From positions 1 to 34,997 of the IMG/VR virus record IMGVR_UViG_3300042691_055943: DNA of 34,997 bases; one strand, written 5' to 3'. Of the stretch, positions 1-34,997 are shown in pieces. The stretch is from a virus. Positions within the stretch are counted from its first letter, which is position 1. The number at the start of each line of letters is the position of its first letter. The notes under the pieces were generated by a model that was not told the origin of the DNA, did not search any database, and worked only from the letters and a program-made list of their open reading frames with translations. The position numbers and the translations under genes are program-made.

Positions 1-372
1 TCATGAATTTTCCCCTAATGTTTTGGTATTTGGCGTTTCCTGTCCCGCCCAACAAGTCGATGCACCGGAGCCGGCCACAATGGTCTGATCTGCTTTCCCC
101 TGGTCGCTCGGGCCGGCCCGGTGATCTCTGACGTTGGACGGATTAATCTCGACCCATTTTCCTGCTGTTATATATTCCTCACAAATTTGTCTCGTGTACC
201 CTATCGCTTCTCGGTATCTAATTTTATTAAAGATAAATACAGGGCTTTCAGTGTCTCCATACATCAAAAATTCAGTGTCATCATGAAATCCATATTTATG
301 ACGCACATATTTTATCCGCCCAACAAGTCGATGCACCGGAGCAGGCGACGATGGTTTGTTTTGCTTGTTCAT
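1..372 (-). CDS. Cassette ORF1, hypothetical protein with attC-encoded N- and C-terminal segments
   Basis: Unrecognised 123-residue protein, last gene of the minus-strand early operon. The ATG at 372 overlaps the stop of the preceding gene (ATGA) and has a GAGGA ribosome site a few bases upstream; both lie inside the attC-like element at 318-411. The first ~18 residues are therefore translated from that element. The central part (about residues 19-80) is rich in Tyr, Ile, Asp and Glu and looks like a genuine folded domain. The last ~45 residues begin PSNVRDHRAG and are the translation of the element at 47-139. The body is visibly more AT-rich than the phage core. A longer upstream start at 435 exists but would begin inside the preceding gene. 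The stop falls exactly at the window edge; if the genome is circular, terL starts at the next base. Function unknown. Confidence 0.6.
   Translation of the reverse strand: MNKQNKPSSPAPVHRLVGRIKYVRHKYGFHDDTEFLMYGDTESPVFIFNKIRYREAIGYTRQICEEYITAGKWVEINPSNVRDHRAGPSDQGKADQTIVAGSGASTCWAGQETPNTKTLGENS
47..139 (+). repeat. attC-like site 1 (integron cassette recombination site)
   Basis: A 93-bp imperfect palindrome with attC architecture. R'' GCCCAAC is at 47-53, spacer AAGTC at 54-58, L'' GATGCACCGG at 59-68, L' CCGGTGATC at 118-126, spacer TCTGAC at 127-132 and R' GTTGGAC at 133-139. L'' pairs with L' except for one extra base (G in GAT-G-CACCGG), which matches the extrahelical base of known attC sites. 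The interior extends the stem with GCCGGCC/GGCCGGC. AACAA after R'' and AC before R' match the usual top-strand polarity, so plus is the likely top strand. Integron function is inferred. Confidence 0.75.
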
Positions 373-411
373 GGTTTTTCCTCGCCTGCCCGGTGATCTC
401 TGACGTTGGGC
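318..411 (+). repeat. attC-like site 2
   Basis: A 94-bp element with R'' GCCCAAC (318-324), spacer AAGTC, L'' GATGCACCGG, then L' CCGGTGATC, spacer TCTGAC and R' GTTGGGC (405-411). It has the same single extra G in the left arm as the other copies. Its arms are identical to those of site 1 but its interior differs: it carries, on the minus strand, the Shine-Dalgarno sequence and start codon of cassette ORF1 and the stop codon of ORF2. It thus acts as a translational junction as well as a candidate recombination site. Confidence 0.75.
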
Positions 412-608
412 GGCAAATCTGGCAATTCCATCCAATGTGTGATATTATCGCATGCTGACAGTGTGTATTTATTTTTTCCCACGCTTGTCCTAGTTACATA
501 TCCAAAATTCCCCGGGGTCATGTACCTGCCAATCATGATGGTGCGCCCATCAGTGATCAATATCTGCCGTGCATCATCAGGATAAAAATCAGATTTATGC
601 CAAATCAT
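369..608 (-). CDS. Cassette ORF2, DUF551-like phage protein
   Basis: A 79-residue protein. The ATG at 608 overlaps the stop of the upstream gene (ATGA, 608-605) and follows an AGGAG ribosome site. The pattern 'DGRTIMIGRY ... DNITHWMELPDLP' with a C-terminal THWM-LP-PP resembles the DUF551 domain, a short domain common in phage and prophage accessory regions whose function is not known. It ends with PPNVRDHRAG and a few more residues, which are translated from the attC-like element at 318-411, where it stops. Its AT-rich body contrasts with the GC-rich phage core. The DUF551 assignment rests on the C-terminal motif and spacing only. Confidence 0.65.
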   Translation of the reverse strand: MIWHKSDFYPDDARQILITDGRTIMIGRYMTPGNFGYVTRTSVGKNKYTLSACDNITHWMELPDLPPNVRDHRAGEEKP

Positions 609-1003
609 ATTGCATCTCCTGACTGGACTGCCGCCCAACAAGGCGATTCAGCCGAGGGCGGGTCGATTGGTTGGGGTGCTTGGCGGTCCTCGCTGGGCCG
701 CCCCGGCTGATCTTTGACGTTGGGCGGCTTCGGAAATGGTTTGCAGATTGATAAAAATAATTCTCGACCGATTACCTGGATTCTCCCGTCCTGACTTGGG
801 ACAATGAAATCATCAGGCTTGGCAATAACGGTTTTACCGTCAATCGGCAGATGAATCCCTTCATCAGTGAAAACAACCCCGCCCTTTTCGTATAAATCTC
901 TAATCCATTCGGGCATGGAATACCAATTATATTTGGCATCCACCATTATTCCACGACATTGGAATGCCTCGACAATTTGTGGGTTAATTTGGAAAAATGG
1001 CAT
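605..1003 (-). CDS. Cassette ORF3, phage hypothetical protein with attC-encoded tail
   Basis: A 132-residue protein. The ATG at 1003 lies 3 nt after the stop of the preceding gene and follows an AAGGA ribosome site. The first ~93 residues resemble a family of small phage proteins that begin with a 'V-EAFQ' segment and have a central 'GKTVIAKPDDFIV' and a terminal 'GR-IQVIGRELF' block; I recognise the style but not a named function. After residue ~93 the chain reads straight through the attC-like element at 633-725 as PPNVKDQPGR... to ...PCWAA and stops in an ATGA overlap with the next gene. The gene body is AT-rich. The proline-rich tail is nearly identical to that of ORF4. Confidence 0.65.
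   Translation of the reverse strand: MPFFQINPQIVEAFQCRGIMVDAKYNWYSMPEWIRDLYEKGGVVFTDEGIHLPIDGKTVIAKPDDFIVPSQDGRIQVIGRELFLSICKPFPKPPNVKDQPGRPSEDRQAPQPIDPPSAESPCWAAVQSGDAI
633..725 (+). repeat. attC-like site 3
   Basis: A 93-bp element with R'' GCCCAAC (633-639), spacer AAGGC, L'' GATTCAGCCG, then L' CGGCTGATC, spacer TTTGAC and R' GTTGGGC (719-725). The single extrahelical base is a T here instead of G, at the same position as in the other copies. It is nearly identical over its whole length to site 4 (about two substitutions), including the unpaired interior. Confidence 0.75.
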
Positions 1004-1006
1004 GGT

Positions 1007-1741
1007 TTATTCCTTCGTGGTATTGGGTTGCATCTGCGCCGCCCAACAAGGCGATGCAGCCGAGGGCGGGTCGATTGGTTGGGGTGCTTGGCGGTCCTCG
1101 CTGGGCCGCCCCGGCTGATCTCTGACGTTGGGCCGACTCGATTGGGCCAGCCGTATTAACACATCACGAAACGCGACAGGCGTGGCATTCCTGATCCTGG
1201 TCTTGTCCTTGCCACCGACCATCGCCATCATGCCAATCTGGCGGGCCTTCTCGTATCCATACCGCTCCAGCGCCACGGGATGGATGCGTTGTTCAGATGG
1301 CCCCCAGGCCAATTCCGGGCGCTCAGTCTTGCACGCATACAGCCATGTCGCCTTGCGTGACAAGTGCCCGTAGTGCCCTTGTTCGACCTGGCAGACCCAT
1401 CCGCCAAACTCGTCCGGCCCTGTCCAGGTAAATGCCGATTTTGGGGTGATTACCCCTAACCAGTTAAATGCGTGACTGTGTGCCGGGTGCTCCAATACAC
1501 CGCCATAATTCCTTACGGCACAAAGCGCAGATGCGAAACAGCCCTGGTCTTCCCCCATGCGATATTGCCCAGGTAATGCCGGCGACCCGTGCCAATAGCG
1601 TCCCCACCGCTGACAAGGTGGGTGCGCCACAACCGGATGCGGCCCATTGTATTTCCTGGCGTCCCGCTCGAGGTCCCAGGCGTCCACCTCGGGCAAACCG
1701 AAATAACATCCTCCGCTTTCCACGAACAGTGCCGCAATCAT
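1007..1741 (-). CDS. Cassette ORF4, conserved phage protein with cytosine-methyltransferase-like motifs
   Basis: A 244-residue protein starting at ATG 1741, which overlaps the stop of the preceding gene (ATGA), with AGGGG upstream. Residues 1-205 match a family I know from Mu-like and lambdoid prophages: MIAALFV start, 'VDAWD--RDAR-Y-GP-PVVAHPPC-RW', 'ED-GCFA-AL-AVR--GGVLEHPA' and a 'TP-AFRDVL' end. The PPCQ and GGVLEHP segments recall motifs IV (PPCQ) and VI (ENV-like) of C5-cytosine methyltransferases, so a distant relationship is possible, but a SAM-binding motif is not evident and activity is not claimed. Residues after about 207 (PNVRDQPGR...) are translated from the attC-like element at 1041-1133. 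This cassette is GC-rich, unlike its neighbours. Confidence 0.8.
   Translation of the reverse strand: MIAALFVESGGCYFGLPEVDAWDLERDARKYNGPHPVVAHPPCQRWGRYWHGSPALPGQYRMGEDQGCFASALCAVRNYGGVLEHPAHSHAFNWLGVITPKSAFTWTGPDEFGGWVCQVEQGHYGHLSRKATWLYACKTERPELAWGPSEQRIHPVALERYGYEKARQIGMMAMVGGKDKTRIRNATPVAFRDVLIRLAQSSRPNVRDQPGRPSEDRQAPQPIDPPSAASPCWAAQMQPNTTKE
1041..1133 (+). repeat. attC-like site 4
   Basis: A 93-bp element with R'' GCCCAAC (1041-1047), spacer AAGGC, L'' GATGCAGCCG, then L' CGGCTGATC, spacer TCTGAC and R' GTTGGGC (1127-1133). One extrahelical G is in the left arm. It is almost identical to site 3 at 633-725. Confidence 0.75.
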
Positions 1742-2124
1742 GGCGCTGCCCCTGTCGTGGTATCAGGTGGCAACGTGGTCGGCCCAACAAGGCCATGCAC
1801 CGGAGCCGCGACGATAGTCGCCGGTGCTTGGCCATCATCCTGGGCGCGGCCCGGTGATGTTGGTGCGTTGGGCCGCTTTAATTGGGCCTGTTGTTTTGAT
1901 AAAAAACTTTGCCTAGATATTGCGTGATCGATTCGCAGCTTTGCCTCTTTATTTGCGCCACCGAATGTACTAAATCTGCCTAAGTGTCTTTCGTCTACGT
2001 CGGCATAATAATACTCAGTACCCTTTCTAATGTGAATTATTCTCCCTTTGTATTTAAGAGTTGAACATAATGATATTACCTTCATTTGATGGCCATCCTC
2101 GAATACGACGTTAAAAATGCTCAT
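1738..2124 (-). CDS. Cassette ORF5, hypothetical protein, first gene of the cassette array
   Basis: A 128-residue protein of unknown function. The ATG at 2124 has a near-perfect CAGGAGG ribosome site (2130-2136), the strongest in this region, and lies 27 nt after the DUF1376 replication gene. Residues 1-87 form a small, Lys/Tyr/His-rich domain. The remainder, from PNAPTSPGR, is the translation of the attC-like element at 1782-1873, followed by 'LPPDTTTGAAP'. It stops in an ATGA overlap with the next gene. The body is AT-rich. No element of the same kind lies upstream, so this gene marks the promoter-proximal edge of the array. Confidence 0.65.
   Translation of the reverse strand: MSIFNVVFEDGHQMKVISLCSTLKYKGRIIHIRKGTEYYYADVDERHLGRFSTFGGANKEAKLRIDHAISRQSFLSKQQAQLKRPNAPTSPGRAQDDGQAPATIVAAPVHGLVGPTTLPPDTTTGAAP
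1782..1873 (+). repeat. attC-like site 5
   Basis: A 92-bp element with R'' GCCCAAC (1782-1788), spacer AAGGC, L'' CATGCACCGG, then L' CCGGTGATG, spacer TTGGTGC and R' GTTGGGC (1867-1873). L'' and L' carry compensating changes relative to the other copies (CATG/GATG), so pairing is kept, and one extra G is again unpaired in the left arm. The interior has its own stem. This is the last copy before the replication gene. Confidence 0.72.
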
Positions 2125-2151: not shown

Positions 2152-3156
2152 TCACGGCCTCCCCTCACCGCCCTGGTTAATCCCCAAATCAATCATCGCC
2201 TCAGCGATGACCTCCGCGCGCTCTCCCTGGGGTCGAGCCAGCCAGGTGGCGAGGCCAATGCGCAGCCCGGACGGTTCGCGGATCGGTTGGCGCATCCGGG
2301 ACGCCAGCCAAAGTATCGTCAGGATCGTTCCAAGTTGGTGCCCGTTGGCCTCGCGAACCCATTCTTGAACCCGGTCGGGCTTGGTGTTGGCCCCGAATTG
2401 CGCGACGATCGGCAGTAATTCCCCACGGTTTAGAGCTTGTTTCAGCCTGGTCTTGTCGAGGCCGTTGATGCGGGTTGTTAGTTTTTCCTTGATGTTTTCA
2501 GATTTTTGATCGGCCGGTGCGCCGCCGCCGTCGTCGCCGGGGGGTGTGGGGGCGTCAGCCCCCGCGTCGCGCTCGCGCGAAGAACCGCCCGGCGACGGCG
2601 GCGGCGTATTATTCTTAGGTAAGGTAAGGTCAGGTAAGGTCCTGTCCTGTCTCTCAGCGACGAAACGCGTTTCACCGTGCGTTTCCATGCCCGTGTCTGC
2701 GTCGTTTCGCGTACGCGTTTCGTCGCACCGATCACGCCAGTCCTTCAGCCGTTTCGCGTCCCGTTCGCGCTTCGTTTTTGCGCGGCTTTTCTGCCCCATG
2801 GCTTCCAGCGCCTTCTCCGCGACAACGGGGTGATATAGACGTCCATCAGAGTGCAGTTTCCAGCCGCGCAGTCCGCCGGCCTCGCGGACCTTTTTCCAGC
2901 CCTTCAGGTCGCGTCCGAACCCCATCAGGCGGGCCAGGATAGCGTCGTTATCCGGCAGGCTGGATGCCGGCACCTGGTGCCAGGATGCACACCAGGACAT
3001 GACTGCGACCCTGAAGACCTCACCATCAGGCGTGGTTGCCAGGTCGGAATCGCGCAGTCGCACCACATCCAGCGGCATCCATTGGAGGTCGCGTAGATCG
3101 CAGTGGGCGGGCACGGGGGGATCAGGCAGAACGTCAGGGCCGGTGCTCATGCTCAT
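2152..3156 (-). CDS. DUF1376-type phage replication protein
   Basis: A 334-residue protein. Residues ~25-115 match the DUF1376 (YdaU-like) N-terminal domain of phage replication initiation proteins: 'LQWMPLDVVRLRDSDL', 'A-MSWCASWHQVPASSLPDND-ILARL-GF' and 'SDGRLYHPVVAEKALEA'. A basic Lys/Arg stretch, a long low-complexity Pro/Gly linker (about 190-225) and a helical C-terminal domain follow. Proteins of this layout usually act at the phage origin and recruit host replication factors; that role is inferred from the family. The start is coupled to the upstream gene by an ATGA overlap at 3156. It is the last core early gene before the cassette array. Confidence 0.85.
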   Translation of the reverse strand: MSMSTGPDVLPDPPVPAHCDLRDLQWMPLDVVRLRDSDLATTPDGEVFRVAVMSWCASWHQVPASSLPDNDAILARLMGFGRDLKGWKKVREAGGLRGWKLHSDGRLYHPVVAEKALEAMGQKSRAKTKRERDAKRLKDWRDRCDETRTRNDADTGMETHGETRFVAERQDRTLPDLTLPKNNTPPPSPGGSSRERDAGADAPTPPGDDGGGAPADQKSENIKEKLTTRINGLDKTRLKQALNRGELLPIVAQFGANTKPDRVQEWVREANGHQLGTILTILWLASRMRQPIREPSGLRIGLATWLARPQGERAEVIAEAMIDLGINQGGEGRP

Positions 3157-9824: not shown

Positions 9825-9907
9825 TTTAATAAGCCTTGGTCGGGGGTGCTGTTATTGTCCCGATTCGTCCCCTTTCGTCCCGCGAAAGTGCCGACAAAGT
9901 GCCGGGC

Positions 9908-10975
9908 ATGGGTGAGCACAAAGGCTGGCGGTTGCGGGCTGAGGATGGGGGGTGGCGGGCGTATGTCCGCATCCCGGGCAAGGGATATCGGTCGCGGAAT
10001 TTCCCCGGTGAGGCGAAGGCTGAGGCGCGGGCGTGGGCCCAGGATGAGGCGGCCAAGCAGCGCACGTCGCGCCGGTACACGCCGCTCATCGGCGGCAAGG
10101 CGATGGTGGCGACGCTGGCGGTCGACTACCTGGCGTCGCTGACGGCGCGGGGGCGGTCACCGGCGCACTTGCGGAACTGCCGGACGACGTTGGAAGGGGT
10201 CGCCGCGGTGGCGCCCGACCTGGCGGCGGGGGATGCGGGGCGGGCGCTAGAGCGCTGGCTGGATGGGATGGAGTGCGCGCCCGGGAACCGCAACCGATTG
10301 CTGGCTGAGGTGCGGGCGTTTTGCCGCTGGCTGATGCGGCGGGATCTGCTTGAGCGTGATCCGACCAAGGCGATCGATCGGGCGAGCGTGCCGGACTACC
10401 TGCGGCCTCAGTTCGGGCTGGATGAGCTTCACCGGCTGCTGACGGTGCCGGATCCGTATCGGGCTCGGTTCGCGCTGCTGGTGTATGCCGGTCTTCGGGC
10501 CGGTGAGGCGGCGGCGTTGACCTGGGGCGACGTGGATCTGGCGGGCGGGGTGATCCTGGTGCGGATGCATGTCGGGCATCGGCTCAAGCGAAACCGGGAG
10601 CGAATCGTCCCATTGCAACCAGAATTAGTGCAGTTGCTCGGTACACCGGGGGAACCAGGGCGGCGGGCGACCGGGCCGAGCGGGCACAACGAGCGGCGAG
10701 ACTTCGCCTCATACCTTATACGACGAGGCGTGACACCCCAGGGGCGTTCGCCGCACGCCTGCCGCCACACCTATGCTGGGTTGATGACGGCAAGTGGGGT
10801 TCCTGGGCCGCTGCTGAGTGCCTACCTGGGGCACACCAGCGCCGCGACCACGATGTTGTACACCAAGATGGCGGCCCGGTACGCTCAGGCGGTCACGGCG
10901 TGGCCGCGTGGGCGATTTGTGCTGACGCCTGCGCATGATGTGCCAGTGCCGCTGATTCCGCCCGTTCACGGCTGA
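9908..10975 (+). CDS. int: Tyrosine recombinase (phage integrase)
   Basis: A 355-residue integrase from ATG 9908. An in-frame TTG at 9836 would add 24 residues that run through the direct repeats and is less likely. Counting from ATG: an N-terminal arm-binding segment (~1-60), a core-binding SAM-like domain (~65-160) and a catalytic domain (~165-330). Catalytic residues are visible: Arg in 'YAGLRAGEAAALTW', Lys in 'HRLKRNRE', HxxR in 'HACRHTYAGLM', His in 'YLGHTSAATT' and the nucleophile Tyr in 'MLYTKMA'. It lacks the extra patch typical of integron IntI. It is adjacent to attP and convergent with the tail operon, and would catalyse integration at tRNA-Phe. Confidence 0.92.
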   Translation: MGEHKGWRLRAEDGGWRAYVRIPGKGYRSRNFPGEAKAEARAWAQDEAAKQRTSRRYTPLIGGKAMVATLAVDYLASLTARGRSPAHLRNCRTTLEGVAAVAPDLAAGDAGRALERWLDGMECAPGNRNRLLAEVRAFCRWLMRRDLLERDPTKAIDRASVPDYLRPQFGLDELHRLLTVPDPYRARFALLVYAGLRAGEAAALTWGDVDLAGGVILVRMHVGHRLKRNRERIVPLQPELVQLLGTPGEPGRRATGPSGHNERRDFASYLIRRGVTPQGRSPHACRHTYAGLMTASGVPGPLLSAYLGHTSAATTMLYTKMAARYAQAVTAWPRGRFVLTPAHDVPVPLIPPVHG

Positions 10976-14298: not shown

Positions 14299-14816
14299 AC
14301 CCGGGATTCCAGACCGGGGAATTCTTCGACCCGGTAGATGCGGCGGGGGAAGCGGCGATTCGCAAAGTCAGCATAGCCGCAGGCCAGGGTGACCTTGGCA
14401 ACGTCGGCGGTGATGCTGCGCACGACGAGTTTCAACGGTGGGTTCAGGTGCGGGGCTGAGAGATCGGTGGACAGGTATGGGCGATAGATCACCCGCACCG
14501 GTTGATCTACCGACAGGTCGAGCGATTCCAGCAGGTCCATCAGCAGGCGGCTGGCGTTTTCGACCGTGAGCTGCAATTCCTGGCGACCTTCGCCCCGGCG
14601 GGGCAGGGTGAATTCAAAGGGAAAGGCGGTGAAAAGAACTGCGGTGCTGGGGTCGTTCGGGGCACTGGATTCCAGGGTGGCGGTCAGGTCCACCCGATCG
14701 CGCACCAGGCGGACCGGGCTGGCCCAGGTCGGATGGTATATCTCGATCGTCGACAGTTCCGCCACGGTCGACGGGCAAGAGGCGTATGCCTCTTTTAGGG
14801 CGGCGGAAATGGTCAT
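14295..14816 (-). CDS. DUF1833 family minor tail protein
   Basis: A 173-residue protein matching DUF1833: 'LKEAYASCPSTVAELSTIEIYHPTW-SPVRLVRDRVDLTATLE', then 'F-FPFEFTLPRRGEGRQELQLTVENASRLLMDLLE' and a C-terminal 'LACGYADFANRRFPRRIYRVEEFPGL'. In lambdoid tails this family lies between the fibre or minor tail proteins and the NlpC/P60 gene, and is thought to belong to the tail tip. The start overlaps the upstream stop (ATGA). Confidence 0.9.
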   Translation of the reverse strand: MTISAALKEAYASCPSTVAELSTIEIYHPTWASPVRLVRDRVDLTATLESSAPNDPSTAVLFTAFPFEFTLPRRGEGRQELQLTVENASRLLMDLLESLDLSVDQPVRVIYRPYLSTDLSAPHLNPPLKLVVRSITADVAKVTLACGYADFANRRFPRRIYRVEEFPGLESRV

Positions 14817-16858
14817 GGGGTGGTGTCCGGTCCAGCACGTTTCACGCCTGCTCCATCGGCGTAGATCAGGGCGACCTTGCCGGATGCGATGGTGATGTAA
14901 GTCCCGAGGTCGGTGGTCAGATCACTGGCAACCGCGCCAATGGACAGCGCATAGGCCCCGGTGGTCAGGTTTTCGATCGTCCAGAGTTTTGGCATGAACC
15001 CTTGGACGTAGACCACGCGCGCGCCGGTCAGGGTGCCGGTGAGGCGGATGTGCCCCCCCGTAAATCCGACATCATTGCGCAGGTTGATCGATCCGGTTCC
15101 AGATACGTCAAACGATTTGAGCCCCGCGTCACTGAACCGCAGCGCACCGGCCCGGACCGGTTCCGTGGCCATGGTGCCGGCGCGTTTCTGGTACGGGCTG
15201 GGTGCGGCGAAGTCCCAGAAAGATTGCTGGGCGGCATAAATGCCGATGGCCAGTTTTCCGGGCGCCCCAAAGTGGGTTCCATCACCGTACCAGGCGGAAT
15301 CCTTGCGCAGCGAGTTCGGGAAGTAGGGATCCACCACCACCGACGCGAGATCCAGCACATGCGGGAAGGTCTGGAAAATCCAGGTATTGAGGTCCGTCCG
15401 CTTGGTTTCCTTGGCGCTGTCGCCCATCGCTGCCGCAAAAGGCGTGCAGGTGCAGACGACGGGGATCATGCCGTCCGTGATCGCACTGGCGTACATGCTG
15501 GAAAGGTTCGACTGGATCGTCGCCAGAGCATCCCCGGCGATGATGTCATTTATGCCGCCCTGGATGATGCAGTATTTCGAGTTTCCAGCCAGCGGCGTGA
15601 TGTCGGCGGCGTAGCGCGCCACCATCATGGTGGTGGTGTCGCCGCCCACGCCGCGGTTGTAGCAGTGGCAGCAAAGCAGGCCTTCTAGCCACCGCGACCA
15701 TTCGACGGTGCCGGCGTAGTCCTTTTTCCCGGACGCACCGGCCATGGTGCTGTCACCGATCATCGCGATTCCCAGCTTGGTGGTGCTGGGGCATTCCTCC
15801 AACTGGAAGCCACCGATGCGGATATCGAACGAACCCGACAACGCCGCAAAGGTCACCCACGACACGACCGAGGTGGGCGTGGTGCTGGCCAGGGCCGTCG
15901 ACGGATCGCCAATTTCCGCGAAGGTGCTGGACGTGGCTGCGTAAATCAATTTCCGGATGCGGCGAACGGTCGGCAGGATCAGGATGCCGCCGTGCGCGAA
16001 ATCGCTGGTATTTGCTACGCTTTTTCCATACATCCATTGCGGTGTCTGCTTCATCGACTTCACGAAGCAGGACATCATGTAATACTTGCCGGCGGTCAGC
16101 ACGGATCCAACGCCGCCGATATTGGTGTAAATCTGGGAATAGAAACTTGACCCGGTCACCTTGCCGAGGGTGATGTCCCGGAAGTTCATCGTGGTCGCGC
16201 TGTCCTTGGTGATGCTGGAACCGGCCCAGGCCCCGGAACTGATGTCTTCCGTATTCGGCAGCAACTGCCGCACCGCACCCAGGATCAGGTCTGAATTGCC
16301 ATGCAGTTGCGCGTTGCCCAGGCCCAGGTCGGCGCAGCGCGAGAGATTTTCCAGTGAAGGCACGGCGTCGGGATAGGTGTTGGGATAGACCGTGGGCGCA
16401 ATCGATCGGGCGAGCAGGTCGGCAAACAGGTCGGCCAGGGCCTGGGCCGTGCTGCGGCCGGTCGGCGTTGCCAGGGCATCGCCCCATGGCCCCATCGCGG
16501 CGCGGGCGGCGGCGAGCGAGGCGGCAGTGATGACCGCCGACATGACGGGATTGATGCCGCCGTAGTTCAGTTGCCACTTGCTGGCGGCAAGGTCCGTCGC
16601 GAACGTGCCCGAGGTATGGGCCAGAGTGCAACGGTAAACGACTGAGCTTTCCGTCACCACATCGTTCAGGGCATAGGCGGTGCTGGTCGTCCAGGCGCCG
16701 CGACTGGTGCCAGCACCAAGTTGCGCCAGACGCTTGGCCAGGGTCGGGACGCTGCCGCCTTCCGTCACCACGTCGGCGGCCACCGCGCTGCCGTGGATGA
16801 CCTGGTGCAGGGTCAGAGTATCGGCGTCGATAGTGGCGATGTCGGTGGCAAGGCTCAT
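14813..16858 (-). CDS. Tail fibre with a C-terminal-half SGNH hydrolase domain
   Basis: A 681-residue protein. The N-terminal ~100 residues include a 'WTTSTAYALNDVV-ESSVVYRC--AHTSG-FATDLAASKW-L' segment typical of small carbohydrate-binding-like modules in tail fibres. Residues ~200-355 look like a beta-sandwich. Residues ~363-550 carry a complete SGNH set: GDS (Ser370), Gly in 'NRGVGGD', Asn437 in GGIND, and Asp/His in 'GDGTHFG' (His529). The C-terminus is a small beta domain. It probably deacetylates or de-esterifies a surface glycan during adsorption. The start overlaps the upstream stop (ATGA). Confidence 0.88.
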   Translation of the reverse strand: MSLATDIATIDADTLTLHQVIHGSAVAADVVTEGGSVPTLAKRLAQLGAGTSRGAWTTSTAYALNDVVTESSVVYRCTLAHTSGTFATDLAASKWQLNYGGINPVMSAVITAASLAAARAAMGPWGDALATPTGRSTAQALADLFADLLARSIAPTVYPNTYPDAVPSLENLSRCADLGLGNAQLHGNSDLILGAVRQLLPNTEDISSGAWAGSSITKDSATTMNFRDITLGKVTGSSFYSQIYTNIGGVGSVLTAGKYYMMSCFVKSMKQTPQWMYGKSVANTSDFAHGGILILPTVRRIRKLIYAATSSTFAEIGDPSTALASTTPTSVVSWVTFAALSGSFDIRIGGFQLEECPSTTKLGIAMIGDSTMAGASGKKDYAGTVEWSRWLEGLLCCHCYNRGVGGDTTTMMVARYAADITPLAGNSKYCIIQGGINDIIAGDALATIQSNLSSMYASAITDGMIPVVCTCTPFAAAMGDSAKETKRTDLNTWIFQTFPHVLDLASVVVDPYFPNSLRKDSAWYGDGTHFGAPGKLAIGIYAAQQSFWDFAAPSPYQKRAGTMATEPVRAGALRFSDAGLKSFDVSGTGSINLRNDVGFTGGHIRLTGTLTGARVVYVQGFMPKLWTIENLTTGAYALSIGAVASDLTTDLGTYITIASGKVALIYADGAGVKRAGPDTTP

Positions 16859-23130: not shown

Positions 23131-23501
23131 GCGATGCCACGGATGACGGTTTGCCCGGTGTCTTCCAGGGAGACCAGTCGGGGATTTAGCTGAAAGTCAG
23201 CTTGCGTGAACGTCGCTGCGGTGACGAAGATCCTATAAAGCGTGCCCTGGCGAGCGGACACCCCGCTGGAATGTGCGGCCGCGGTCGTCCCGTTCTGTCC
23301 GCGACTGCATCCGGTCAGGGTGTTGGCGCTTTTGCCGGTGTAGGCAACCTCTTCGCCTTCGATCACGATGCTGCCAGACGCGGAAAAACTTGCTGCGCTT
23401 GTCAGGACGATGGACGTGCTGCCAGAGGTGATCGCGCCATTCAGCGTCGACGTGACCAGCGTGGCAGCAGCGTATTTTCCACCGGCGAGAGTGACGGCCA
23501 T
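23127..23501 (-). CDS. Small phage structural protein with a 'GEEVAYTG-LTGCSRGQNGT' motif
   Basis: A 124-residue protein. The segment 'ITSGSTSIVLTSAASFSASGSIVIEGEEVAYTG', followed by 'NTLTGCSRGQNGTTAAAHSSG', is a recurrent motif in phage fibre and baseplate proteins. It starts in a TGATG overlap with the preceding SGNH gene. It is likely a virion structural or decoration protein; its exact place is unknown. Confidence 0.68.
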   Translation of the reverse strand: MAVTLAGGKYAAATLVTSTLNGAITSGSTSIVLTSAASFSASGSIVIEGEEVAYTGKSANTLTGCSRGQNGTTAAAHSSGVSARQGTLYRIFVTAATFTQADFQLNPRLVSLEDTGQTVIRGIA

Positions 23502-25828
23502 CAGCGCACCGACCCGACCGTTTCCTCGGTCGCCAGTGACAAGTGAACGCGCCAGCCGACACCAGTCAGCAGTTCAGTCTGTTCGATGTCCCAGGTCTCA
23601 CCGGTGGCGACGCGGCGGAAGCGGTCGGCGCGGGTCAGGGTGGGGGCGAGGGACAGGGCGATCACCAGGATGGATTGGTTCCACGACGCCTGCGCGCCGA
23701 TGCCGTTGCGCATCAGGGCATCGCTGGGGCGCAGGCCGGTCCAGATGCCCCGGGCGGGGATTTCGGCGCCGGTGGATGGGATGTAGACGATGTCCTCTGC
23801 CAGGCCCATGGGGCTGGCGAGGTGGCTTTCGCGGTCTCTGGCGGCGATGCCGCGCAGCGTCGGCGCGGTGTAGATCGGCGCGGCGGCGGCAACGGTGATC
23901 GGTATGGGCAGAGCGCGCACGGCGACCGGGTCGGCCTGGTCATCGGTCAGCAGCCCGGTGGGGCCGGCGGGATTCTGGCCGAGCAGGTAGCCCAGGGTGG
24001 TCGCTCCGACCGCAGCAACCGCCAAGGTGATCAGCAGGGTGGTGCCGGTTTCGCGCACGGCGCTGGCGATGGTCATGGGGCCAACGGTGTCCGCGACGGT
24101 GAAGCCGGGAATCGCGGTGGCCGGGGTCAGGGTGGTGCCGCCCCGGTGGCTGATGGTGATGCGGATGGCGGTGCGCGCGGCCGTGGTGAACTGCGCGGCG
24201 GTGATGCGTGGGGCGCCGTAGCTGGTCGCCAGGCCGAGGGTGGACAGCAGGGCGCGGGCCTCTTGCCGGCCGCGTCGGCGCATCGATGCGCCGCCGTAAT
24301 GGCTGGTATAGCCGCCGACCAAATCGCCGTTGATGATGGGGTAGTCGATGGTGTCTGCAGCGTTGAGGCGGTTGGTGCCGTCGTCCCAGGTCTGGTGCGC
24401 GGCGCGCACAGCGTTGTAGCCGGCGTCCCAGGATCCGGCCAGGACGGTGCGGCCGACGGTGCTGGTGATCCATTTCACCGTGCGGCCAGTGTCTTCATCG
24501 AGCCAGGTGCGCAGGGTGTCCATGGCGGCCAGATAGGCGGCGGTGCTCTGGCCGTTTATCGCGTCGCTGGCCCCCTGGGACCAGATGATGGCCTCGATCT
24601 TGCCGCCGGCCTGGTTGATGGCGGTGAGCAGCACGCCGTACTTGGTGGCGGGGTCGGTGTGGGTGGTTCCCCGGAATCCCCACACGGTGCCGTCGACGCC
24701 AACCAGGGCGGCGAGTTGATCCGGGCAGACCAGGCCGACCGGGATGCCCAGGGCTGTCGCCAGGGCATTGGCGCAGGGAACACCACTGTTGGCGCGGCGG
24801 CCGGACACGATCGGTTCCGTGGCCAGGCCCCAGGTTCCGGCGGTGCAGATGCTGACGGTATCGGCTGGGGTGGTGTAGTCGGCGTCCCCGTATCCGATGG
24901 CGTTGGACTGGCCGGCGATGGCGAGGATCAGGCCGACGCCGAAGCGGTTGGATCCAGACCAGGTCGCTAGGGTGGCGTTGCTGCCGTCCACGGTGCGGGC
25001 GAGCAGGCGATACCATCCGCCCTGGGGCAGGGTGGCGGCCAGGGTGAAGGTTCCAGCGCCAAAGGTGGCGTCGGTCCAATCCAGGACGGTGGCCGCGTCG
25101 GCGAAGGCTTCGACCCGGACCTGTACCTTGGCCGGGGTGCCGGTGTAGGTGCCGGCCAGGGTCACGGCGGCGGTGCTGCCGGTGCGCTGGTAGACCTTGC
25201 GGCTGGGCTGATCCGTGCCGGTGATGGTGTCGCTGGGCGTGGTGTCGATCGCGTACACCCGGCTGATCTGCAGGCCGGTGGTGGCACTGCCCGTGCCAAC
25301 GGTGCGCACGCCAGCGCGACCGATGCGGGTGATATTGGCGTCGGTGACGCTGATGACCTGGACGCCGTCCCACCAGACCGAGATGGAAGAGCCGCTGACG
25401 CGCAGTTCAAGCACCTTGAAGCCGCCGCCCAGGGTGGGGATGGTGATGTCGGCCACGGACCCGAGTTGCGTCCCAGCGCCGGCATCAACGCGGTACAGGA
25501 TCAGTTGCGCCGCGCTGGCGACAAAGCGCACGACGTAGTTGCTGATGGTCGCGTTGGTGTCCATGCGGGCGGCGATGCCCACGGATGGACCGGTGAGGCC
25601 GCCGCCCAGGTATTCGACCTCAGCAAAAACCGAATAATCCGGCGAGGATGGCACCCCACTGGCGGTGCAATATCCGCTGGCATTCGGCCACAAGCGGCCG
25701 GCGGCGCTGATCTTTGCGGCCGTGGGGGCGGCAATCCAGTCGGTCCACGACGCCCCGACTTCGCCGGTGTGGGCGACCAGGTTGGTATTGTCGGCCTCGC
25801 CGGTGAAGGTGTCGTTGAGGAACAGCAT
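23501..25828 (-). CDS. Large SGNH/SASA-type esterase fused to a connector-like C-terminus
   Basis: A 775-residue protein. Residues ~1-195 look like a LamG-type jelly roll (beta strands, 'GFKVLELRVSGSSISVWWDGVQV'). Residues ~300-530 resemble sialate O-acetylesterase-type SGNH enzymes: AGQSN with nucleophile Ser308, 'WSQGASDA' at ~416-423 (the family usually has WxQGExD, so the Glu is replaced by Ala), and His510 in 'TSHYGGASMRRRGRQ'. The last ~90 residues ('LTRADRFRRVATGETWDIEQTELLTGVGWRVHLSL') resemble small head-tail stopper proteins. It lies in the neck gene region, not beside the tail fibre. The enzyme call is good; the C-terminal call is inference. Confidence 0.78.
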   Translation of the reverse strand: MLFLNDTFTGEADNTNLVAHTGEVGASWTDWIAAPTAAKISAAGRLWPNASGYCTASGVPSSPDYSVFAEVEYLGGGLTGPSVGIAARMDTNATISNYVVRFVASAAQLILYRVDAGAGTQLGSVADITIPTLGGGFKVLELRVSGSSISVWWDGVQVISVTDANITRIGRAGVRTVGTGSATTGLQISRVYAIDTTPSDTITGTDQPSRKVYQRTGSTAAVTLAGTYTGTPAKVQVRVEAFADAATVLDWTDATFGAGTFTLAATLPQGGWYRLLARTVDGSNATLATWSGSNRFGVGLILAIAGQSNAIGYGDADYTTPADTVSICTAGTWGLATEPIVSGRRANSGVPCANALATALGIPVGLVCPDQLAALVGVDGTVWGFRGTTHTDPATKYGVLLTAINQAGGKIEAIIWSQGASDAINGQSTAAYLAAMDTLRTWLDEDTGRTVKWITSTVGRTVLAGSWDAGYNAVRAAHQTWDDGTNRLNAADTIDYPIINGDLVGGYTSHYGGASMRRRGRQEARALLSTLGLATSYGAPRITAAQFTTAARTAIRITISHRGGTTLTPATAIPGFTVADTVGPMTIASAVRETGTTLLITLAVAAVGATTLGYLLGQNPAGPTGLLTDDQADPVAVRALPIPITVAAAAPIYTAPTLRGIAARDRESHLASPMGLAEDIVYIPSTGAEIPARGIWTGLRPSDALMRNGIGAQASWNQSILVIALSLAPTLTRADRFRRVATGETWDIEQTELLTGVGWRVHLSLATEETVGSVR

Positions 25829-32592: not shown

Positions 32593-32823
32593 CTACGCCA
32601 GGCGCGGGGCTGGGCTGTCCTTGAAGTTGTGCCCGCATTTTTTGCAGATGAGAAACACGATGGAATCCTTGCTGCTGCGCACTTTCAATTTGTCGTGACC
32701 ACATTCGTCGCAGCAGGCAACGATCACGGTGGTGCGCCGCTGGCCTTTGGTCCAACCGATGGGCGTCACCGGAGGCGGCCGGTGGCGCCGGGGCTCGTTG
32801 CCGAATCCGACGAGCCAGTTCAC
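32593..32823 (-). CDS. Small zinc-ribbon protein adjacent to terminase
   Basis: A 76-residue protein. 'CCDECGHDKLKVRS' and 'LICKKCGHNFKDSP' are two CxxCGH knuckles about 20 residues apart, a clear zinc ribbon. The GTG start at 32823 overlaps the terL stop (GTGA). It may bind DNA or an RNA polymerase; function is unknown. Confidence 0.75.
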   Translation of the reverse strand: MNWLVGFGNEPRRHRPPPVTPIGWTKGQRRTTVIVACCDECGHDKLKVRSSKDSIVFLICKKCGHNFKDSPAPRLA

Positions 32824-34997
32824 AATCCACCGCCGAATCCGGTGAGCCAGCCGCCGTTGCTGGGTCGGCGGGGGGGGGGAAGTGGTGGTTTTTGGGGCTG
32901 CGCTGGTGCTGGTGTTTGAGGTGCCATTGGGTCAGCAGCGATGAGCGCGGCGGCCTGCCGATGCGCGGCGCGGATAGCGACTTGTTCGTCAAGCTTTGCG
33001 CCCCGGATGCTGGCGCCGATGGCTGCCATGGTCCAAGTATCAAACCAGTGATTGTCCCGGTTTGGCCTAAGTTTCCATTCGTCGGTGGTGCGACCGTTGG
33101 CGGTGACCCGGGTGCGGATTTCGGAGCTTAGCTGGTCTGCGATCATGCGGTGTTGCGAGACTTGGTCTTTGGTTCCGTAGAGGGTCAGGCAGCCGGCATC
33201 ACCGATGCGGGTCAGCAGACGATCAGCGACAAAGGATTTCCAGGCGTTCGCGTCGGCAAGGATGTGCCGCGTTTGGCGTTGGCGTGGTTTGGGAATGCGC
33301 CAACCGGGACCGACCCGGTCTCCGGGCTTTTTCTTCCACTCGTCCATAGATGGTGCTCCTGCTGCGATGGTGCGGCCGAAATAGGGGAGCAGGATGGAGG
33401 CGTGCGCGGATCGGCGGCAGAATTGATACACGGTGTCGGTGCTGTTGCCGTAACCGGCATCGATCACGATCTGGTCGAGGCGCATCACGCCGCCGTCGTC
33501 GCGGGCCCATTCCCTGCCGGCGAGAATTCCGACAAGGGATTCAAGTGCCGCATACAGGGAGGCTTCCCAGGATCCGCCGGGGTGCGCTTTCGCGAGGGTC
33601 TTTTCCACCTCACGATAGGTGAAGTGCGGGCGGCCTTGGTCTGGATAGGTGCCATAGGCGATGCAGTCACCGTCGAATGACTGCGTCCAAGCCATGGTTG
33701 ACCAGTACAGGCATTTTTCCTGCACGTCGATGCCGGCGGTCAGGATGGTAGATTCGATCGGGGCAATGCCTTTGTCGAGTCCGCTCGCCTGGCGCAGGAC
33801 GGCGGCGGCGGTGACCTGTTCGACCTCAGACGATGCCAACGGGTCCATGGGTTCGTTTTGATATTCGGCCATGAAAGTCGCGTGTCCGCGCTTGAGCAGC
33901 AGATTCATCGCGTGTTGAATTGCGCTAAGTTCGGCCAGACCGGGGGTGTGTTTTTTACCGCGCTCGGGCCGTTCGTAGCGTTCGCGCCAGGATGGGATCG
34001 CGCCGGCATCCATCGCGGCTCGGTTCGCCCGGTAGAACGCGGTTGCTCGCTTCATGCCGAATCCAAGCCGCATGTCTTCCTTGTAAATTTCAAAATATTC
34101 GTCCCAAAGCTTTTGATTCGTAGGCATGGTGTGCATCAGCCGCGCCTTGAAGCCCTGCCATTCGGGATGTTCTTTCCGATCAAGGATCTGGTCCGCGAGA
34201 TCACCCTTGTCGATGACGGTGCAGGTGGTCAGGGCGGCGATGCGCTGGCCGGGACCAGCTAGGCCGAGCACGGTCCCGGTGAGCGTGCGCAGGCGTGCAG
34301 CGACCTGGGATACAGAGCGGGCGGATTCATCGGTTTGGGGATCATCGACCAGGACAATGTCTGGGCGGACCTGGGAGCCATCTGCAAGACTGCACTTGGC
34401 ACCGCGAATGCGGCCCGTGATCCCAGCGGTGCGAATGACCGAGCCACCGCCGGCCGCCGATCGAGGAAGGCGCACCGTCGTCTTGGTCCAGAGCAACATG
34501 GTGCGAACGCCTTCGCTAGTCTGACCCTCAGCCCGGCGCGAGATGCCTTCCAGCACAGTGATTGGATACACTGCATCGGGGAAGTCGTCGGAAAGGGCTT
34601 CGTTGTTGTCGAGTTCTTCTTTGATCGAAGAACAGACCAGTTCAGCCGCATCCGCATCCGCCGCGATGACAAACAGGAAGCGCCGGTGGCCGTACAGCAT
34701 GGCCCAAATGCAAGCGCATTCGCAAACTGTGGTTTTTCCCGATCCGCGTGGCATCGCGACCGCGAACTGGCCACCCTCCAGGATCGCCGTCTGAAGACGC
34801 TCGATCATGAGCTTGTGGTCACCCGAAAACGCCAGTGGGAACCGCTGCGGGAAATACTTGGACAAGAACCCAAGCAGGTTCCGGGCGTAGCGTCCACGCC
34901 GCTGCGGATTCTTGCACGGCGGGATCGGCCCGATGTCCCGGGCCGAGGCCCGCCGCGCCTTCCGTCCTGCGCTGTTTTTTTCTCGATCTTGTTGCAT
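32820..34997 (-). CDS. terL: Terminase large subunit (GpA-type)
   Basis: A 725-residue protein that starts at the last base of the window. The ATPase domain has Walker A MPRGSGKTT (82-90) and Walker B IVLVDDP (214-220). The nuclease domain has Asp in 'AGIDVQEK' (Asp424), 'VIDAGYGNSTD' (Asp513) and a C-terminal 'NHWFDTWTMAAIGA'. It cuts concatemers and pumps DNA into proheads. No separate small terminase is recognisable. The Pro-rich C-terminus may contact the portal. If the genome is circular, ATG follows the stop of cassette ORF1 at position 1, with AGGGG about 13 nt upstream. Confidence 0.93.
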   Translation of the reverse strand: MQQDREKNSAGRKARRASARDIGPIPPCKNPQRRGRYARNLLGFLSKYFPQRFPLAFSGDHKLMIERLQTAILEGGQFAVAMPRGSGKTTVCECACIWAMLYGHRRFLFVIAADADAAELVCSSIKEELDNNEALSDDFPDAVYPITVLEGISRRAEGQTSEGVRTMLLWTKTTVRLPRSAAGGGSVIRTAGITGRIRGAKCSLADGSQVRPDIVLVDDPQTDESARSVSQVAARLRTLTGTVLGLAGPGQRIAALTTCTVIDKGDLADQILDRKEHPEWQGFKARLMHTMPTNQKLWDEYFEIYKEDMRLGFGMKRATAFYRANRAAMDAGAIPSWRERYERPERGKKHTPGLAELSAIQHAMNLLLKRGHATFMAEYQNEPMDPLASSEVEQVTAAAVLRQASGLDKGIAPIESTILTAGIDVQEKCLYWSTMAWTQSFDGDCIAYGTYPDQGRPHFTYREVEKTLAKAHPGGSWEASLYAALESLVGILAGREWARDDGGVMRLDQIVIDAGYGNSTDTVYQFCRRSAHASILLPYFGRTIAAGAPSMDEWKKKPGDRVGPGWRIPKPRQRQTRHILADANAWKSFVADRLLTRIGDAGCLTLYGTKDQVSQHRMIADQLSSEIRTRVTANGRTTDEWKLRPNRDNHWFDTWTMAAIGASIRGAKLDEQVAIRAAHRQAAALIAADPMAPQTPAPAQPQKPPLPPPRRPSNGGWLTGFGGGL

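Follow-up and report, generated by a model that had tools for sequence, protein, structure and literature searches.

An array of inverted integron attC sites in a phage that looks like a phage-adapted form of the cassette array

Five short elements separate small genes near one end of a metagenomic phage record (IMG/VR IMGVR_UViG_3300042691_055943; the window, that is, the whole stretch of 34,997 nucleotides analysed here), raising the question of whether they are integron recombination sites and, if so, how a phage uses them. The preliminary description had placed attC-like elements at five positions, and all of them were found there. They are listed with their scores against a covariance model, R1.

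47–139, + (top) strand: attC site 5; 91.7 bits, E 1.4e-22; near-identical to Planctomycetota chromosomal-integron sites
318–411, + strand: attC site 4; 91.3 bits; its loop holds a ribosome-binding site (RBS) and an ATGA in which the gene 4 stop overlaps the gene 5 start
633–725, + strand: attC site 3; 74.4 bits
1041–1133, + strand: attC site 2; 76.7 bits
1782–1873, + strand: attC site 1, first in transcription order; 69.3 bits

The anatomy ascribed to these elements was also confirmed. Each has paired R'' and R' boxes (GCCCAAC and GTTGGRC, conforming to RYYYAAC and GTTRRRY), 5-nt and 6–7-nt spacers and an L''/L' stem with extrahelical bases in L''; one extrahelical base is kept at a constant place across the elements, and a second (A, after L'') is likewise conserved. 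R1 was built from 31 bacterial chromosomal-integron sites only, taken from a Planctomycetota metagenome-assembled genome (MAG) with two integron integrases, and its matches in the whole window were these five elements only, all on the + strand (69.3–91.7 bits; E values of 1e-22 to 2.5e-16), which bears out the covariance-model check proposed earlier and shows the strand specificity of an attC site. A strict structural scan gave five matches in the window versus none in 100 first-order Markov simulated windows. As single-stranded DNA, every site gives a better fold than most of its dinucleotide shuffles (− strand z of −2.1 to −5.4), and the folding expected at the outset was obtained except at 1782–1873, where the minimum-energy fold is an alternative two-hairpin form. 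The window was without any match in an Rfam scan at gathering scores, and a search of isolated phages with the array DNA returned no real match. A reading as terminators or regulatory hairpins was not retained, since genes run through most of the sites and the sites match those of integrons. We conclude from sequence and predicted structure that the five elements are real integron attC sites.

The window carries a tyrosine recombinase of its own, which was compared with the integron integrases (IntI).

9836–10975, + strand: phage tyrosine integrase, not an integron integrase; phrog_1, E 4.6e-39; TIGR02249, 33 bits versus a cut-off of 265

The absence of IntI from the record, as first described, is thus supported, and no IntI was detected in the four phage records tested. 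A cluster of attC sites lacking integrase (CALIN) is defined by two or more attC sites spaced within a few kb and by the lack of a neighbouring IntI. With five sites in 1.9 kb and no IntI in the record, the array is CALIN-like within that record, as had been proposed; lacking IntI, it differs from a complete integron, which has intI and attI.

Sites of this type were traced to a bacterial source. When 84,980 bacterial and archaeal genomes were scanned with a 24-base pattern, six stretches were returned, five of them in the Planctomycetota MAG LBMAG_Planctomycetes_hypo.bin5, which contains dozens of near-identical attC sites and two full IntI (TIGR02249, 364 and 352 bits), one of which adjoins an array and is divergent from it. 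R1 matches at E 1e-5 or better were present in 12 of 198 sampled Planctomycetota genomes, and sites this close to those of the window occurred among them only in LBMAG_Planctomycetes_hypo.bin5. Both attC subtypes of the MAG (AAGTC...CTCTGAC and AAGGC...CTTTGAC) are present in the phage array, suggesting repeated exchange with the integron pool. The two different integron integrases found in one Planctomycetota MAG (L016 and L017, at G001:C22 and C8) each lie near attC arrays of the same type.

The layout had been read as that of an integron cassette array, and this holds for the association of attC sites with small genes. It does not hold for the arrangement of the two, as the cassettes are inverted and the genes have no stop before attC; the antisense orientation and the read-through had both gone unnoticed.

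1738–2124, − strand: cassette gene 1, unknown protein; runs through attC site 1; its stop overlaps the gene 2 start (ATGA, 1741–1738)
1007–1741, − strand: cassette gene 2, phrog_12600 family (E 3.6e-61, residues 1–203)
605–1003, − strand: cassette gene 3, unknown protein; continues through attC site 3
369–608, − strand: cassette gene 4, DUF551-like; its stop lies within attC site 4; PF04448, 22.2 bits (cut-off 22); phrog_924, E 8.8e-7
1–372, − strand: cassette gene 5; starts inside the attC site 4 loop; reads through attC site 5
2152–3156, − strand: phage replication protein (phrog_22470, E 7.7e-43); immediately precedes the array and has the same operon direction

A canonical cassette has its gene in the attC top-strand orientation with attC 3' of the gene. 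In the window the attC top strand is the + strand and all cassette genes lie on the − strand, so that every cassette is inverted and its gene antisense. The same orientation was observed when cassette interiors were compared across three phages (the window, G004 and G003, represented by loci L007/L032 and L006/L034, respectively): the antisense strand was the more open one in 11 of 13 interiors, with two ties and none reversed, whereas in the Planctomycetota MAG the sense strand was the more open one in 20 of 21, with one tie. This open fraction replaced a longest-ORF measure with extended ends, which was ambiguous for phages. Cassette gene 1, for example, has an open fraction of 0.99 on the − strand versus 0.31 on the + strand. 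Homology likewise places coding regions antisense to their own attC, namely the phrog_12600 and DUF551 genes in the window, an N6/N4 DNA methyltransferase in G004 and HicAB in L031. A 3-periodic base-composition test did not tell the strands apart, and the assignment of the coding strand rests on open frames and homology.

A canonical cassette gene has a stop of its own, but at each of the five window sites the gene reaches the attC boundary without one. Cassette gene 2 illustrates the consequence: its homology stops at the attC boundary, and attC site 2 encodes its C-terminal tail. Pseudomonas phage Persinger encodes a homologue (70% identity over 202 aa) that is without attC and has its own stop some 20 residues beyond the point where window gene 2 meets attC; a search of viral contigs confirmed no further relatives. 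Of 16 phage sites from five phages, 14 share one phase of entry (binomial p 1.2e-5 for an expected one third, with sites within a phage being related), and the predicted attC tail at same-phase sites resembles ...PN(V/A)RDHRA...; the other two are entered in another frame, one of them being degenerate. At most phage junctions the stop codon either overlaps the following start codon or lies within a few bases of it (ATGA, TAATG or TAA-ACC-ATG). ATGA overlaps are common in phage operons generally. An attC loop holds both the RBS and the start codon of the following gene in three phages (window 318–411, L034 8466–8559 and L032 4954–5041), and at the last of these sites the upstream methyltransferase gene stops in another frame, just inside the site.

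The array differs in composition from its surroundings, as G+C falls to 47% in window positions 1–1000 compared with about 60–69% in most of the record; this low G+C suggests foreign cargo. PADLOC gave no defence match among the window cassette proteins, and the cassette genes had no match in the fetched bacterial arrays. Outside the array, large phage proteins at 14813–16858 and 23501–25828 show, by eye only, SGNH-hydrolase-like motifs (GDSTMAG and AGQSNA).

Searching related phages for the same elements with other cargo had been suggested at the start, and four further metagenomic phage records proved to share the layout (G004/L007, G003/L006, G005/L008 and L031). They have no detectable proteins in common with the window, save a weakly similar integrase in G003. 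Their cargo includes the DNA methyltransferase cassette of G004 (L007 2219–2926) and a HicAB toxin-antitoxin pair that immediately follows an inverted attC (L031 10468–11060). A leader, GG(G/A)TTCTGGTCAGGAG(T/G)TGCAGCCATGA, is common to cassettes of two of these phages with different genes. In G003 and G005 the array lies directly upstream of the large terminase gene; these two terminases are related to each other (33% identity), and that of G003 is of the GpA type. In L025, a relative by its replication protein, the replication gene and terminase are close together, with no array detected by R1.

The position of the array in the window depends on how the record ends are interpreted.

32820–34997, − strand: terminase large subunit (GpA type), PF20454; relatives in Planctomycetota genomes

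The record starts on the final base of a stop codon (position 1) and finishes on the initial base of the terminase ATG (position 34997). Because both ends fall exactly on gene boundaries, the record was probably trimmed from a longer contig, and the description of the phage as complete is not borne out. A further ATGA start at 4–1, running off the record end, suggests that the array continues past position 1. The array had also been placed between early genes and terminase: it does follow the replication gene, but the terminase is at the other end of the record, and the two are adjacent only if the ends join. By analogy with G003 and G005, the window array is likely to lie beside the terminase if they do.

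The phage host is probably a member of the Planctomycetota, judging from the terminase. Its relatives occur in 19 of 198 Planctomycetota genomes, including LBMAG_Planctomycetes_hypo.bin5, at 45–50% identity over most of the length for most of the best matches, some being weaker; identity to isolated phages is below 30% in the best matches listed. Apart from the terminase, matches in Planctomycetota genomes were limited to weak ones for two structural proteins. The replication protein, which resembles those of Pseudomonas and Burkholderia phages, and the G003 and G005 terminases had no relatives in the 198 genomes, and no attC was detected upstream of 16 related Planctomycetota terminases.

We consider it fairly probable that the phage uses freshwater Planctomycetota-type integron attC sites as inverted, translated operon junctions, with cassettes that a host IntI could exchange in trans. 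In the gene direction, each cassette would consist of an inverted attC, an RBS and start, and an ORF without its own stop, which would cross the recombination box of the next cassette, enter its attC in a fixed frame and stop at or next to the following start codon; ribosomes would be passed on by termination-reinitiation at each junction. A fixed frame and a junction stop would let cassettes be joined in any order with correct termination, and the need for every cassette to hand over to the next start, whatever its neighbour, would explain why the frame is fixed. Hairpins formed by attC in mRNA hinder ribosomes, an obstruction that is lifted when a short ORF within the attC is translated, and class 1 integrons use termination-reinitiation at attI1 (PMC8876359); translation of the phage tails may similarly melt a hairpin that otherwise blocks ribosomes. 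The folded bottom strand is what IntI recognises, and cassette orientation with respect to the Pc promoter follows from this (PMC8191803). In inverted cassettes the bottom strand is the coding (non-template) strand, and phage transcription may expose it. If the sites stay substrates for host IntI, the array could gain, lose and reorder accessory genes. We hold more tentatively a broader possibility, that of a phage-specific lineage of inverted cassettes which fit, always in one frame, into a translationally coupled phage operon and keep the recombinogenic bottom strand non-template and exposed by transcription. Phages in different bacteria might then share and shuffle accessory genes through host integrases, from a pool that would recombine with bacterial integrons and be silent behind their Pc promoter.

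The rival we regard as least improbable, though still unlikely, is a frozen state, in which old integron sites persist as junction sequence, recombination is dead and the inverted, read-through operon has spread among phages by homologous recombination at shared attC or leader sequence. The lack of IntI in these phages, the shared leader, the near-identity of sites within each array and the degeneracy of some (e.g. L034 8159–8216 and L032 4195–4289) are consistent with it; conservation of R boxes, spacers and extrahelical bases in most sites, and the mixture of both host subtypes in one phage array, argue against it. Elements at gene junctions that carry the RBS and start of the next gene are difficult to reconcile with selfish palindromic repeats that entered gene ends in frame and only resemble attC, and so are the full attC anatomy with both extrahelical bases and spacer lengths, the strand-specific model matches and the identity to sites in canonical arrays beside IntI. 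Rickettsia palindromic elements are repeats of this kind, inserted inside ORFs and devoid of recombination-site anatomy, and the window sites differ from them in having that anatomy. In-frame read-through in genes of phages without shared proteins would fit such repeats, which we nevertheless judge very improbable.

Less improbable than such repeats, yet still improbable, is an ordinary CALIN, that is, a piece of a host integron array with canonical cassettes captured by the phage, as in other phages. The match of the sites to a bacterial integron and the CALINs described in phages (PMC9892861) point in this direction. A captured host segment would, however, keep gene and attC co-oriented, whereas here all cassettes are inverted and stop-less, the inversion is repeated in four other phages, and the cassette genes lack counterparts in the fetched arrays. 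Finally, an assembly chimera of phage and integron DNA could be imagined in a metagenomic record whose ends are cut at gene boundaries, but it is scarcely credible given the same architecture in five independent contigs, an orientation unlike that of bacterial arrays and genes that overlap continuously with the phage operon.

Taken as inverted, translated junctions, the sites give the locus the look of a phage-adapted form of the integron cassette array. Phage attC arrays have so far been treated as passengers from bacterial integrons, and the recurrence of an inverted, stop-less, frame-locked design in phages without shared proteins suggests a cassette adapted to phage operons. It would offer a testable mechanism for the reshuffling of phage accessory genes by host integrases, and annotation assuming the canonical orientation would miss or misread such arrays. 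A search of open-access PubMed Central papers found no description of phage arrays in which every cassette is inverted and translation continues through the attC.

The position inside a phage had been described as an unfamiliar one, but attC arrays in phages are already published. Qi et al. (2023) describe attC arrays without IntI between small genes in phage genomes, and report recombination with attI1 in E. coli for five of the six phage attC sites they assayed (PMC9892861). As phage attC arrays and their activity with IntI1 are therefore known, location alone is not the novelty. The window array resembles those phage CALINs in its IntI-less attC sites between small genes, and methyltransferases are cargo in both groups, if the array phages are taken together. 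It is set apart by that paper's description, in which the arrays of TJE1 and PH101 are given a typical bacterial structure, whereas the window cassettes are inverted and read through attC; the scans used here picked up no attC in TJE1, which has a published array, or in parts of P12002L. The Vibrio anguillarum prophages described in the same source are also temperate phages with integron parts, but these are captured pieces of the host chromosomal integron, with IntI (PMC9892861). The chromosomal integron of the Planctomycetota MAG (BJHQ01000008 and BJHQ01000022) has attC sites near-identical to those of the window but differs in having IntI, long arrays and canonical gene orientation. The closest parallel to the junctions is the coupling of ORF-11 at attI1 and the short attC ORFs of class 1 integrons, where the following cassette likewise supplies the stop and translation restarts at its gene (PMC8876359); there the coupling involves attI1 and the first cassette in canonical orientation, whereas here it would involve every junction and the opposite attC strand.
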